A DNA stretch of 64,000 nucleotides, taken from the NCBI RefSeq assembly GCF_007748115.1, contig NZ_CP036289.1:620001-684000 (forward strand), written 5' to 3'. Below, one piece after another: positions 4,607 through 25,065 of the stretch (the first letter of the stretch is position 1; the number at the start of each line of letters is the position of its first letter). The notes beneath the pieces were generated by a model. The model was not told where the DNA came from, did not search any database, and saw only the letters and a list, made by a program, of their open reading frames with translations. Source of the stretch: Bremerella volcania. Lineage in GTDB: Bacteria > Planctomycetota > Planctomycetia > Pirellulales > Pirellulaceae. Made by a program: the position numbers and the translations under genes.

Positions 4607-4735
<129 letters not shown>

Positions 4736-4845
4736 GGTGAACTTCGGGGATTATCACCGGAATTGTCACTTCAAACAAGGGTGTTTTCTCTTCTTCACCA
4801 ACGGCGCCACATAAGGTTTCTATGTTTTCAAGTAGCCCTATTGCT

Positions 4846-6807
4846 TCATCCTTTTGTAAGTCGAAGCGGTTTCGCTTTCAGTACGGATGAATTGTTAAGT
4901 CGTCGATCAGCCTTCCTGTCTGTCAAAATACCGCATTTTGCTGGACCTAGAGCAACGGAATATTCCATCCGCCCAATTTCAATGCTTTGAACTTCGTGTG
5001 TTTCTAGATATCCCTTCTTCGATCGAAGGAGTAGAAGATCTCCTTTCTCGATTGTTGCACCTTTGGTGATTTCAATGCATACGACAGATTTATCAGTCAA
5101 GACTCGGTATACGTGTCCCACGACTTCGACCTCCGGGGAGCACCAGGCTTCATCGGTGTCTATAGATAAAAAGGACTCTCGATCTTTTATGGTCTGAGAG
5201 TCCAAGAAGCACGCGGTCATACCTCGAATCACAAGATCGTCGATTGATCGAGCTACGATATTGGAGAGTTTGCCAGGCCGGTTGCCGGCCTGTGTTTTAT
5301 AAAGGACCAGAGCTTTACTTGAAGAATCTTGTTCACGTAATGTTCGTGTCCTTGCACTGATCTCGCCGACAGCGGACGGGTCTAAGTTCGTTAAAATGAA
5401 GACATACCATTTGTTACCACTATGTCTGAATTCGTATCGTTCACGAGCTTGCCCGACACCAAGCAGGTCTATGGGAGCCTCTTCTACGTCGAATCCCATC
5501 CAGGCAAGAGCCGCAAAAGACGCATACTCAAAATCATTTTCATCGCATGCGACTTTCAGCATTTTTGCAAGGATGTTCTGTAGAATCTGGTCACGAAATG
5601 GGCCTACATTACTTTCCCTCAACTTAAGTGCAATCTCTTCTTGTTTCTCAAACTCCTCTCGTTCTTCGTCGGGAACTTCTGGAAACGTAGGGAAGTACAT
5701 TTTCATTCTGTACGCCTGCATCAATATGTATTGTCGATTGAGGGTGTTGTCGAGTCGCGGATCTCTTGAAATGCACCTGGCAAGCCATGACATAGTCTCC
5801 GCAATCTTCAATGCGTACCCTTCGTGAACAACCGGTGGCTTCGCCTCATGTAAGAGCTTGTTTCTCAGATTCCGAATCTTGTTTAATTCATCAGCAAGAC
5901 GAACGCGGTTCACCTCAGGTGATTGAGGATCAATAATCGGGCCTGGAATACGTTCTTTTGAGAGTAACTGATAGGCCTTCAATTTTGAGTGGAAGCTGTC
6001 CGTGCCGATTCGCCTTTCAATTTCTGGTCTATCATAGCCCGCTAGGTGAAGCTCTTTCTCCAGGCGGCGATCGAGAATAACCTCAATTGCCGTAACGAAA
6101 TTTACGAGCATTTGGTCATATTGTCCTCTGTAGTATGACCCCCATGCGTTGGAAAGTGTCCTTCGTTCAGGCGCAATCTCTGGAGCACTTCCGTCAAATT
6201 CCAGGTGTTTGCACGTATAGTTTGGGACGGCCATCGAGCCCGTTGCACCTAGTCTAGGCAGTTGATCTTGTAGCAAGTAATGCTGAAGCTCAACTTCGTG
6301 ATACAACCCGTCGGGAGTTCGTGCTATCCAAAGTGGGCAGTCCCATTCTGATATCGCGTATACAAACGGGTCATCTGCTTCCGCTTGATATGTGAGAATT
6401 AATCTATTCGCGAGTGGGATTAGATCGGCCGCAAAGCATCTTAGTAACTGGACCGCATGATTCCTCGTTGGCCCATCTTCCTTTAGAGCAATGGCCACAT
6501 CCATTGGAAGCGGTATTCCGAATTCCAATACGGTACGAAGTTGCCGATGGTGATAGTTCCGTTTGCTGTCCTGCCGTGCGTTCCACCCAATAAAATAAGG
6601 GTGGGCAACGATCATGGCAAGATTTTGCCAATCGCGTTCACTCGATGTTGTCCGAAATACAGCAGTTAGATCGTTGTGCAATGTCACGGGCAACGTTATG
6701 CCACGGAATTCTGCCGTATGCCGTCCCGATGGCGTCGCAAGCCAAAACGGCAACTCAACAAGAAACGCGAAAGGAACTCTTTGAGGCTGACGTCCATCAG
6801 AGGCCAT
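4846..6807 (-). CDS. large HEPN-domain protein, candidate defence effector
   Basis: 653 aa, no assigned family. Residues 1-200 are of unknown fold. Residues ~222-345 look like a HEPN helical bundle: long helices around 228-250, then IRNLRNKLLH with the R-x4-H ribonuclease motif at R315-H320, as in ApeA/DUF4145-like HEPN proteins. Residues ~402-540 have a helix-strand order reminiscent of Mrr/PD-(D/E)XK folds (FAALAWMGFDVEE, then KWYVFILTNL), but the usual E-x-K catalytic pair is not evident. Residues ~558-632 read like an EF-Tu domain-2 beta-barrel (VVGHVYRVL, IEKGDLLLL, VQSIEIG). It is AT-rich, alone in a tRNA island beside an integrase remnant, with no MNT-type antitoxin gene. HEPN RNases act in abortive infection; that role here is inference. 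Confidence 0.75.
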   Translation of the reverse strand: MASDGRQPQRVPFAFLVELPFWLATPSGRHTAEFRGITLPVTLHNDLTAVFRTTSSERDWQNLAMIVAHPYFIGWNARQDSKRNYHHRQLRTVLEFGIPLPMDVAIALKEDGPTRNHAVQLLRCFAADLIPLANRLILTYQAEADDPFVYAISEWDCPLWIARTPDGLYHEVELQHYLLQDQLPRLGATGSMAVPNYTCKHLEFDGSAPEIAPERRTLSNAWGSYYRGQYDQMLVNFVTAIEVILDRRLEKELHLAGYDRPEIERRIGTDSFHSKLKAYQLLSKERIPGPIIDPQSPEVNRVRLADELNKIRNLRNKLLHEAKPPVVHEGYALKIAETMSWLARCISRDPRLDNTLNRQYILMQAYRMKMYFPTFPEVPDEEREEFEKQEEIALKLRESNVGPFRDQILQNILAKMLKVACDENDFEYASFAALAWMGFDVEEAPIDLLGVGQARERYEFRHSGNKWYVFILTNLDPSAVGEISARTRTLREQDSSSKALVLYKTQAGNRPGKLSNIVARSIDDLVIRGMTACFLDSQTIKDRESFLSIDTDEAWCSPEVEVVGHVYRVLTDKSVVCIEITKGATIEKGDLLLLRSKKGYLETHEVQSIEIGRMEYSVALGPAKCGILTDRKADRRLNNSSVLKAKPLRLTKG

Positions 6808-6969: not shown

Positions 6970-7215
6970 CTATACTTGTATTGAGTTCTTGCTAGTTTGC
7001 CATAGCAATTCCGCTGTGCGCTCAGCATCCTGACCGACGTAGAACTTCAGCGTCGTCTCAATAGATTCATGTCGCATCAGTTCCCGCAACTGCTGTGGGA
7101 GTAGCCTTCTTGACCAGCGTTCCCCGAATGCCCGACGTACGTCGTGGATACTTGCGAATTTCTCCTTTTCGGTGCGTCTGTCGACGTTCACCACGATGCC
7201 AGCGGTCTGGCGACC
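6970..7215 (-). pseudogene. tyrosine integrase, C-terminal remnant
   Basis: Only the last ~80 residues of a phage-type tyrosine recombinase survive. They contain the catalytic box HDVRRAFGERW (H-x-x-R) and LMRHESIETTLKFYV, which carries the second His/Arg region and the nucleophilic Tyr. The homologous-looking frame continues upstream of the GTG at 7194 (GIVV) until a TGA at 7216-7218, beyond which the rest of the catalytic and DNA-binding domains is missing. It cannot be an active recombinase. It lies inside the tRNA-Lys-bounded segment and probably descends from the enzyme that inserted it. Confidence 0.8.
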
Positions 7216-7330
7216 TCAACGACGCCATCCCGCGCCGAGATATTAATATCCGATCGAATCAAGCTTTGGGGAGAGAAAAGCGGACTTGGGGCTACTCGAA
7301 GCCTGTTATAGTGGGCTAGGAGGAAGTGCC

Positions 7331-7981
7331 TTGGATAGTAGCCCAACAAGACGATACCAGGACCGCTGGCTGACGGCTCCCAACTTGATCACGAGCCTTC
7401 GCATTATCGGTTCACCCGCGATGATCGTTCTGGCCTACCATCAGTACCCGATGGCCGTTGCCGCCTGGGTTGCGTTTCTGGTCTTTACCGAGTGGCTTGA
7501 CGGAGTGGTGGCCCGTACTCTTCACCAGCAGTCGGAACTTGGGGCTCGCCTGGATACGATCGCAGACGCAGCGTTCTACACGTCTCTTTTAATTGCCCTG
7601 GGGCTGATGTTTCCTGAGGCGACGATCCGCGAGGCGTGGTGGACAACCGCGGCGATCGTCAGCTACGCGATTAGCTGGCTCGTCGCACTGATCAAGTTCC
7701 GCACTCTTCCGAGCTACCACACCTGGATGGCGAAGGGAGCCTGGCTGGTCGTGGGTATCGGCATTGTGTCGCTCGTGGCCGATTGGAGTAGTTGGCCATT
7801 TCGCGCGGCGATGTTTTGCGTTGTCCTTGCCAACCTCGAATCACTTTTAATTACGCTTGTGATTTCTGAGCAACAAGTGGACATACCCTCGATTTGGCAT
7901 GCCCGCCGGAGGCAATTGAATGTCGCGTCAAACACGCCCGATACGGCATCAGAATCGAATAAGACAACTCCCAATCAGTAG
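7331..7981 (+). CDS. CDP-alcohol phosphatidyltransferase family protein
   Basis: 216 aa integral membrane enzyme with about five or six hydrophobic spans. The full family signature is present: DGVVAR, eight residues, G, three, D, three, D (DG..AR........G...D...D), so it should transfer a phosphatidyl group from a CDP-linked lipid to an alcohol, as in PgsA or PssA; the acceptor cannot be told. The start is a TTG at 7331 preceded by AGGAGGA (7318-7324) with six bases of spacing; the longer frame from TTG 7286 lacks such a site. The final codons (PNQ-stop) and the following terminator fall in the tRNA-derived repeat, so its 3' end was shaped by the integration event. Confidence 0.85.
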   Translation: MDSSPTRRYQDRWLTAPNLITSLRIIGSPAMIVLAYHQYPMAVAAWVAFLVFTEWLDGVVARTLHQQSELGARLDTIADAAFYTSLLIALGLMFPEATIREAWWTTAAIVSYAISWLVALIKFRTLPSYHTWMAKGAWLVVGIGIVSLVADWSSWPFRAAMFCVVLANLESLLITLVISEQQVDIPSIWHARRRQLNVASNTPDTASESNKTTPNQ

Positions 7982-8062
7982 ATGGTTGGTTCGATTTCAA
8001 TGGGGAACCTCAAAGCCTCGTGGGTGTCAACACTTGCGAGGTTTTCTTTTGCGTTGATAATC
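7973..8062 (+). repeat. right direct repeat (attR-like), diverged tRNA-Lys 3' end
   Basis: Repeats AATCAGTAG, then TGGTTGGTTCGATTTCAA, a changed acceptor strand, and the tRNA terminator. It lacks the 5' half and the pairing needed for a tRNA. Substitutions and small indels against 4643-4735 show age. Confidence 0.7.
8016..8050 (+). terminator. terminator, copy of the tRNA-Lys terminator
   Basis: Stem CCTCG (8016-8020) / CGAGG (8037-8041) followed by TTTTCTTTT. It now serves the phosphatidyltransferase gene. Confidence 0.65.
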
Positions 8063-8215
8063 TGCGGACCGCGCGGATCCGTACTGCTGACGTCCCACTC
8101 CGCAGTAACAAGAGTCAGGCTTTGACGCGGCTAACAACAACAGATCGCGACAGGGTAGCAAACAGTCCAGATCCCAGCAGGAAAAGAGACTTCTCCCGTG
8201 ATGAAGGAGGATTTA
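8051..8215. other. gene-free stretch right of the island
   Basis: With the repeat and short reading frame on either side, the interval 7982-8299 holds no full gene. A 76-residue frame from 8020 starts inside the terminator and has no site or recognisable content. This stretch probably holds the promoter for the next genes; no convincing boxes were identified. Confidence 0.4.
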
Positions 8216-23605: not shown

Positions 23606-25065
23606 GGCGTGGCATTCTTTCGCCACAGCTGAAACTCGGCATTCGACCAGTCGACGTGGAAGCCACGCTGCGTGAGAAGCGGCTCGAGTTCTACTAGCTG
23701 CTCGCTCTTGGTGATGACGACGTCGACCGGCCCTGTCTCCAGCGTCCGATCGAGTGACTCGGGGCTTAATTGAATGGGATACCCGATCGAACTGCGACGC
23801 GTGTAAAAGGCCAGAACGCGTGGTTTGAAGAACAGGCACACCTCTTCCGGCTTGACGCTGGTCGTGACTTCGGCGAACAGCTGTTGCGCGGCAGGGATCT
23901 CTGGCCCTTCCAAGAGTCCGAATTCGGAAGCGCTGTACTGACCGGCATAGCAGGCCAGCGTGAAGATAACGAAAACAGTCAGGCAGATCTTTCGCCACTG
24001 GGTTGATGTCGGAACATTCTCGAGCGCGTAAAGAACCCAAAACAAGAAGCCTGGAAGCAGGGGCCAGATCATGCGAATGCCATTGGCACCAGGCCAAACC
24101 ACGATCAGCAGAAAATAGAACACGCTGGCAATCGCCAGCAGCTGCGGCCTGGGCCAGCTTTCTTTGCAGAAGCCAATGAGGCCGACAACGGTAAGGACCA
24201 GGCCGGTTGCCGCGGTGAGCCACTTGGCGAAGCCGTTCTTCCAGAAGAAAACAAAGGAGACCGAGTCAGAAAATAGATTCGAAGCAAGGGAGCGGAGATT
24301 GATTTCGGAAAGCTGATCGAGATACCCGGAGCCGCCGACCGGCAGCAGAAACTTATGGATCGCATAAAAGACAATCGCAGCCGTGATGCTAATCACGGCG
24401 AAGCGAGTCAGCCGACGATAGAGGATGGCCTCGGTCACGAGCAGGGCAGGGGGCAGAACAATCCCGACGGTCCGTGTGCCGATGGCAAGATAGATCAGCA
24501 GGCCTGTGAGGATCGCCGGACCTAAGTGCTGGGAAGGTTGATCCGTGTTTCCGCGGTAGCGCTGGTAGACGTAAAAGGTCAGCATCCACCACAGCACGAA
24601 CAGATGCTCGGAAAGGATGGAGAGATGAAAGTCCCAGAAGATCGGACAAAAACCGATCAAGCCGGTAAAGCAAAGGGACGCCGTCGCCGACAGTCGCCGC
24701 GCAAACAGAATCGTCGAGACGCCCACCATCGGAACGAAGAGCAAGATCATCGCGACGCGAAACGCGGTGTAGTTGACGCCAAAGATCGCGTAGATCGGCG
24801 CTAGGAACAGCGGAAAGATCGGCGGGTAGGCGCGCGGTCCGATAACGGCGGCATCGGGATTGTAGACGTACCCGGTATCGGCGTAGTCGTGATAGGTAGC
24901 CAGATTCCGAGCGTGGCTCAAGTACTGGGCGAAGTCACCACCCCAGTCGTGCCCCTCGCGCATCAAGGTAATTTGAAAGAGAAACGCAGCGACCAGCAGG
25001 GCCGCGAAGAGACCTTTCTGCAGGGATGTCCATCCGTGAACACTTTGGCAATCCGTTGCTTCCAC
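23602..25065 (-). CDS. multi-pass membrane protein, GT-C glycosyltransferase-like
   Basis: 487 aa with about ten hydrophobic spans and a soluble C-terminus. The first loop after span 1 contains GHDWGGDFAQYLSHARNL and later GPRAYPPIFPLFLAPIYAIFG, the arrangement of acidic loop and Pro-rich YPP segment seen in GT39/ArnT-like mannosyl- or glycosyltransferases that use polyprenyl-phosphate sugars. The acceptor is unknown. It begins 15 bases after the VOC gene on the same strand and may be the third gene of that operon. Confidence 0.75.
   Translation of the reverse strand: MEATDCQSVHGWTSLQKGLFAALLVAAFLFQITLMREGHDWGGDFAQYLSHARNLATYHDYADTGYVYNPDAAVIGPRAYPPIFPLFLAPIYAIFGVNYTAFRVAMILLFVPMVGVSTILFARRLSATASLCFTGLIGFCPIFWDFHLSILSEHLFVLWWMLTFYVYQRYRGNTDQPSQHLGPAILTGLLIYLAIGTRTVGIVLPPALLVTEAILYRRLTRFAVISITAAIVFYAIHKFLLPVGGSGYLDQLSEINLRSLASNLFSDSVSFVFFWKNGFAKWLTAATGLVLTVVGLIGFCKESWPRPQLLAIASVFYFLLIVVWPGANGIRMIWPLLPGFLFWVLYALENVPTSTQWRKICLTVFVIFTLACYAGQYSASEFGLLEGPEIPAAQQLFAEVTTSVKPEEVCLFFKPRVLAFYTRRSSIGYPIQLSPESLDRTLETGPVDVVITKSEQLVELEPLLTQRGFHVDWSNAEFQLWRKNATP

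Follow-up and report, generated by a model that had tools for sequence, protein, structure and literature searches.

A gene in Bremerella volcania that encodes a 653-aa protein is, judging from its flanking sequence, the cargo of a decayed tRNA-Lys integrative element. Its product is on balance likely to be a single-gene anti-phage protein, a HEPN RNase whose inactivated nuclease fold and translation-factor-like barrel would sense or bind nucleic acid, and which probably cuts RNA during phage attack. This reading starts from the gene itself and its family, a conserved HEPN motif, the loss of nuclease residues and the barrel's homology. It draws further on the mobile site and on a defence candidate that a sister species carries there.

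The gene lies in a 64,000-nucleotide stretch of DNA (the window), and the features discussed here are listed in Table 1. The open frame of the original prediction was confirmed and placed on the minus strand, which had been left unstated; the plus strand over the same interval is full of stops. The predicted order of HEPN, nuclease-like and barrel domains was also borne out. The protein has no match at E ≤ 1 in Pfam, PADLOC, NCBIfam or PHROGs, a profile of the whole protein found nothing credible among solved structures, and a single-sequence structure prediction of the whole chain was unusable (mean pLDDT 34.3). For the N-terminal part, residues 1–210 found no match in Pfam or among solved structures, and seven members keep the VELPFW block, an arginine about 70 residues on, and the W-D-x-P-x-W block (D-C-P in the 653-aa protein).

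Table 1. Coordinates of the gene, its parts and the surrounding element in the window.
Feature	Positions	Strand	Remark
tRNA-Lys (CTT), integration site	4607..4680	+	
Direct repeat copy 1: 3' part of tRNA-Lys and the bases after it	4637..4751	+	
Full gene: HEPN, inactive nuclease fold, EF-Tu-like barrel	4846..6807	-	653 aa, stop included
EF-Tu domain-2-like barrel, residues 557-653	4849..5139	-	
PD-(D/E)xK-type fold without the (D/E)xK residues, residues 400-556	5140..5610	-	
HEPN-like helical part, residues 213-349	5761..6171	-	
R315-N-K-L-L-H320, predicted RNase motif	5848..5865	-	R-[N/H]-x3-H in 8/8 members
N-terminal part, residues 12-205, with conserved VELPFW and W-D-x-P-x-W blocks	6193..6774	-	no family match
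Integrase remnant, last 81 codons	6970..7215	-	nearly identical to the end of the intact 381-aa tyrosine integrase of congener G001
Direct repeat copy 2, decayed, old attachment site	7967..8078	+	92/112 aligned bases identical

Searches with the 653-aa protein, and then with small alignments, identified seven homologues, one in each of seven other genera of the class (genomes G332, G529, G627, G706, G785, G821 and G831). Members that align along the full length are 21–26% identical to the 653-aa protein, with 27–40% in the HEPN part and 23–28% in the N-terminal part. Because the seven homologues keep the order of the blocks, the frame is not a product of chance, and by sequence these HEPN/dead-nuclease/barrel proteins are a real, rare family. 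Four relatives are full-length and uninterrupted (G332, G529, G706 and G831). The G785 member has a late frame change and ends at the contig end, and the G627 member has an in-frame stop and is without the C-terminal half. The coding sequence of the G821 member (L043, 2126–4314) is divided at a run of A into two frames that overlap, through a misassembly, a frameshift or a split that is natural.

The original prediction would have been undermined by homologues found only as core housekeeping genes, and the distribution is of another kind. The gene occurs in one of 98 relatives, in six of 397 genomes of the class, in three of 392 of the phylum at E ≤ 0.01 (one of these doubtful) and in three of 197 relatives of G332. 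A small-alignment query matched five of the 392 phylum genomes, three of them in the C-terminal module only, and four of 147 relatives of G706 matched, one in the barrel only; these sets of genomes overlap. Within the genus, the gene is present in one genome of nine and missing from all eight congeners. A match in L003 (G298, E = 0.003) was doubtful and was dropped as a family member. With two members as tblastn queries, no match was found on plasmids or phages, and none was found in viral contigs; a further search of genome contigs returned one relative, which is the G529 gene. No neighbour is shared by the eight family loci (69 frames of at least 80 aa compared at E ≤ 1e-4; two contigs are shorter than 5 kb), which suggests a stand-alone gene, in agreement with the single-gene nature first proposed. 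At none of the seven other family loci does a tRNA adjoin the gene (several of these contigs are short), the sole tRNA lying about 5 kb off in L009.

The HEPN assignment is carried mainly by the motif, which was found at R315 and H320 as originally read, and R-[N/H]-x3-H is kept in all eight members that cover this region. In HEPN superfamily members with the conserved motif, the position after R is most often taken by N, D or H, and R-[N/H]-x3-H is the form described for active HEPN RNases (PMC3710099). Against Pfam, the G627 member matched HEPN_RiboL-PSP at E = 1.3e-5, its 25.6 bits falling short of the curated 28.4, and it also hit HEPN and DUF4145 at E ∼0.02, again below the curated cut-offs. 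For the G821 member the E value with HEPN_RiboL-PSP was 0.068, or 0.018 when a fragment was searched, and none of the remaining members matched this family at E ≤ 1. Modelled from a two-row alignment of the 653-aa protein and one relative from L015, residues 209–349 form an all-helix bundle with a mean pLDDT of 56.5 and a pTM of 0.52. Searching the PDB with this model using Foldseek placed the HEPN protein 2hsb as the top natural chain (E = 0.72), followed by 2q00 (HEPN), with 1o3u (HEPN) and Csm6 at lower ranks; no match reached E ≤ 0.001. Around residues 228–345, where a HEPN bundle was expected, this two-row model of low pLDDT is a helical bundle with HEPN chains as its best natural matches, but at E values of at least 0.7, a weak test of the expectation.

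Comparisons of profiles added little to the HEPN assignment. The HEPN profile reached no solved HEPN chain, and its top matches among solved structures, designed PPR repeats, were rejected as an artefact, with no single stretch passing. Profile against profile, the HEPN part scored 15.1 with RiboL-PSP (covering the motif only), 0.3 with DUF4145 and 0.2 with ApeA. This is a poor test, because the control between two known HEPN families, RiboL-PSP and DUF4145, also scored 0.1. The RiboL-PSP alignment drew on 16 of 24 loci and the DUF4145 alignment on 11 of 15, with apparent wrong-strand translations in at least one of the 16 rows (L072) and two of the 11 (L087 and L088). Taken together, the motif, the one Pfam match and the weak two-row model lend moderate support, and residues 213–349 are likely a HEPN domain.

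The C-terminal half can be placed more firmly. A profile of residues 400–653 matched the C-terminal part of three proteins from outside the family (L024, L025 and L057) with a probability of 99.1. The nuclease-like part alone scored 95.7, where 15 shuffles gave at most 0.6, and the barrel alone 96.9; in each of the three comparisons the highest-scoring of 15 column shuffles stayed below 1. All three proteins carry the usual nuclease residues in the form ED-(x)-(D/E)-V-K-G, and (D/E)xK is absent from all seven family members in which this part can be read, so we interpret the middle of the chain as an inactivated nuclease fold. The restriction-enzyme-like middle of the original prediction thus held as a fold and failed in its catalytic residues. 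In this part the 653-aa protein is shorter than its relatives. The three outside proteins (L024, 1874–3835; L025, 6246–8378; L057, 6055–7815) are unnamed and have an intact PD-(D/E)xK domain, and tblastn located relatives of them on seven plasmids, including those of Klebsiella, Serratia, Pantoea and Synechocystis.

The barrel scored 97.3 against two small stand-alone proteins, L026 and L052 (best of 15 shuffles, 1.4), which supports the EF-Tu-like reading. Family profiles also found these two proteins, one at 1.5e-4 and the other at 1.7e-4; the former contains GTP_EFTU_D2 at 1.5e-8 and matches EF-1A and EF-Tu chains. Among solved structures, the barrel profile matched EF-1A (0.0026), eIF5B (0.048) and the unrelated Urm1 (0.08), and the EF-1A and eIF5B matches are not independent evidence, since the alignment included the stand-alone EF-Tu-like rows. 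The L025 barrel has a weak match to the U32 peptidase C-terminal domain (0.13). Matches of the barrel of the G706 member (L016, 6233–6529) to DARPin ankyrin repeats were set aside as chance, the best E of 2.3e-5 being summed over repeats. An EF-Tu-like barrel also sits behind the intact PD-(D/E)xK domain in L024 and L025, and because these nuclease-active proteins carry it, the barrel does not have to mean a link to the ribosome.

The genomic setting supports and refines the 'island' of the original prediction, through low GC, a repeat of the tRNA-Lys 3' end and an integrase stub. The GC content of the gene is 0.474, as against 0.562 in the rest of the window. Elsewhere in the window, positions 24001–25000 show a marked AT skew of 0.332, with neighbours near zero. 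The two repeat copies align with a score of 65, whereas 200 shuffles reached at most 17, and the core pattern of the repeat occurs exactly twice in the 64 kb (none of 100 shuffles). Copy 2 was missed by a substitutions-only scan because of small indels, and was found by gapped alignment. Between the repeats, the gene is accompanied by nothing but the integrase stub and a 231-aa frame, the 81-codon remnant standing in place of an intact integrase. The 231-aa frame (7286–7981) occurs in two of the nine genus genomes and reads, by its motif, like a CDP-alcohol phosphatidyltransferase.

The same site was examined in the congeners, where tRNA-Lys is present in all eight stretches and the gene upstream of it is common to all nine genomes of the genus. 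In G001, the site (L044, 3964–9415) holds an att-flanked insert of ∼5.4 kb with an intact 381-aa tyrosine integrase (Phage_int_SAM_5 at 6.3e-9; Phage_integrase at 7.5e-6, just below the cut-off) and a G2P-like replication protein (7.1e-8), and is likely the intact form of the element. In G008 the cargo is different and comes with a 394-aa integrase and a second att copy. Integrase stubs, 115 aa long in G005 and 92 aa in G006, stand there with one or two cargo genes, and the insert of G002 is att-flanked and includes a 352-aa frame. No integrase was found among frames of at least 90 aa in G003, G004 and G007. An integrase or its stub thus accompanies other cargo in four of the eight congeners. 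The order tRNA, cargo, integrase stub is common to the window and G006, and G005 has it with the cargo inverted. In these three genomes, the last 81–115 integrase codons alone are left beside the cargo (6970–7215 in the window; L046, 11561–11908; L048, 5018–5296); the front part has thus been lost repeatedly, perhaps by chance decay, perhaps for a reason.

Ten cargo proteins from five congeners were searched against PADLOC. The G005 pair (L046, 11997–13704), beside tRNA-Lys and the 115-aa stub, matched PDC-M02A (2.6e-54) and PDC-M02B (3.2e-157) strongly, the G002 frame gave a weak AgaR match (0.0044), and seven of the ten gave nothing. We found no paper under the name PDC-M02. The L048 cargo was considered as a known abortive-infection family, and no such match was obtained in Pfam or PADLOC. 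Since cargo is swapped between sister species at this site, and in one of them includes a defence candidate, we regard the 653-aa gene as the cargo of a changing site. Because the site exchanges cargo next to the same integrase in nine genomes, the unnamed genes carried there can serve as a shortlist of defence candidates, which is useful in a poorly surveyed bacterial group.

From these observations we infer the following working model. The HEPN domain would be the effector, an endoribonuclease acting as a dimer through R315 and H320, and the remainder of the chain would restrain it. The C-terminal half, comprising the dead nuclease fold and the barrel, would bind nucleic acid as a sensor or docking part, and the N-terminal part may be a second sensor. 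Infection would release the HEPN domain, which would then cut RNA, most likely that of the translation machinery, so that translation and the phage would be stopped. Docking of the barrel on tRNA or the ribosome is attractive as a conjecture. The adjoining tRNA-Lys gene says nothing about the target, because it is the site of integration. Many HEPN RNases act in phage defence, but what leads them to their RNA is often unclear; a HEPN domain, a translation-factor-like barrel and a dead nuclease in one chain offer a compact and testable model of aiming and triggering.

The closest competitor to this model is a variant of it that differs in trigger and target alone, in which the C-terminal half recognises foreign DNA, the HEPN domain kills and the barrel is unrelated to translation. 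It is a real possibility that we still rate below even chance: the nuclease-plus-barrel module occurs with an intact (D/E)xK in the HEPN-less L024 and L025, and no translation target was detected, but the nearest curated relatives of the barrel are translation-factor domains, and recognition of DNA by the nuclease-active relatives is itself a presumption. A more distant reading makes the protein a HEPN RNase toxin serving stress or maintenance of the element, which would protect the cell or addict it to the element and not act primarily against phage. Being the cargo of a mobile element would suit such a toxin, and HEPN domains are common in toxin–antitoxin pairs (PMC2701414, PMC3710099). We think it unlikely, because no partner gene accompanies it, either between the repeats or as a common neighbour at the eight loci.

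Two further readings question whether the protein is an RNase, or works, at all. The helical part might not be HEPN and the R-x4-H coincidental, leaving a nucleic-acid-binding regulator; the profile and fold scores are weak enough to allow this, yet the motif is invariant across eight divergent members and one member reaches a Pfam HEPN family at 1.3e-5, which makes this reading a poor bet. Poorer still is the proposal that the protein is decayed cargo, non-working in the B. volcania genome. The reduction of the integrase to 81 codons, the decayed repeat and the shortened nuclease-like part agree with it, but the 653 codons are open, the motif residues are intact, and low GC argues for a late arrival. 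We retain the anti-phage HEPN RNase as the preferred reading.

The closest known systems include the CoCoNuTs, which combine HEPN RNases, inactivated PD-(D/E)xK folds and EF-Tu-domain-II-like OB-folds, with RNA as the predicted target (PMC11090510). In Types II and III (PMC11090510), these parts are spread over the proteins of an operon with a McrB-type GTPase and coiled-coils, whereas here they form one chain. By reading, no McrB-type GTPase or coiled-coil was found among frames of at least 80 aa between the repeats. The 653-aa protein might condense such an operon into a one-chain RNA-targeting immune protein, with a dead-nuclease sensor, a barrel docking on the ribosome or tRNA and a HEPN RNase cutting there, a specific proposal that we put forward with little confidence. 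If it were true, the family would be a defence family new to the literature searched, with a translation-factor domain aiming a HEPN RNase. ApeA, a tested single-gene defence, was considered because of its two-part layout. Like ApeA and the single-protein HEPN abortive systems, the protein is one chain with ∼200–300 aa before an R-x4-H HEPN domain, and, going by the listed architectures, ApeA is without the nuclease-plus-barrel tail (PMC3710099). Membership of ApeA was rejected: the N-terminal part has no Pfam match to ApeA_NTD1 and scored 0.1 against three of four ApeA proteins retrieved from the class, the fourth being left out because of a wrong frame. The HEPN part scored 0.2 in a comparison that also fails between known HEPN families.

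PrrC and RloC are HEPN RNases that cut tRNA-Lys in phage defence and stop translation, and a target of this kind is what the model proposes, but they carry an ABC ATPase (PMC3710099); the 653-aa protein has no Pfam match to one, and no NTPase was seen in it. L024 and L025 (and L057, on Synechocystis plasmid pSYLB, for the nuclease part) share a homologous C-terminal half with the family and differ in keeping their catalytic residues, in their other N-terminal parts and in having no recognised HEPN domain. L026, L052 and the U32 peptidase C-terminal domain resemble the barrel, and are single small domains without a nuclease. PDC-M02, a candidate listed in PADLOC, occupies the tRNA-Lys site in G005 as a two-gene cargo unrelated to the 653-aa protein. 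HEPN domains fused to REase domains are already known (PMC3710099). In line with the original prediction, no description of this domain order was found in the open-licence literature searched, and what is new here is the set of parts attached to a HEPN effector protein.
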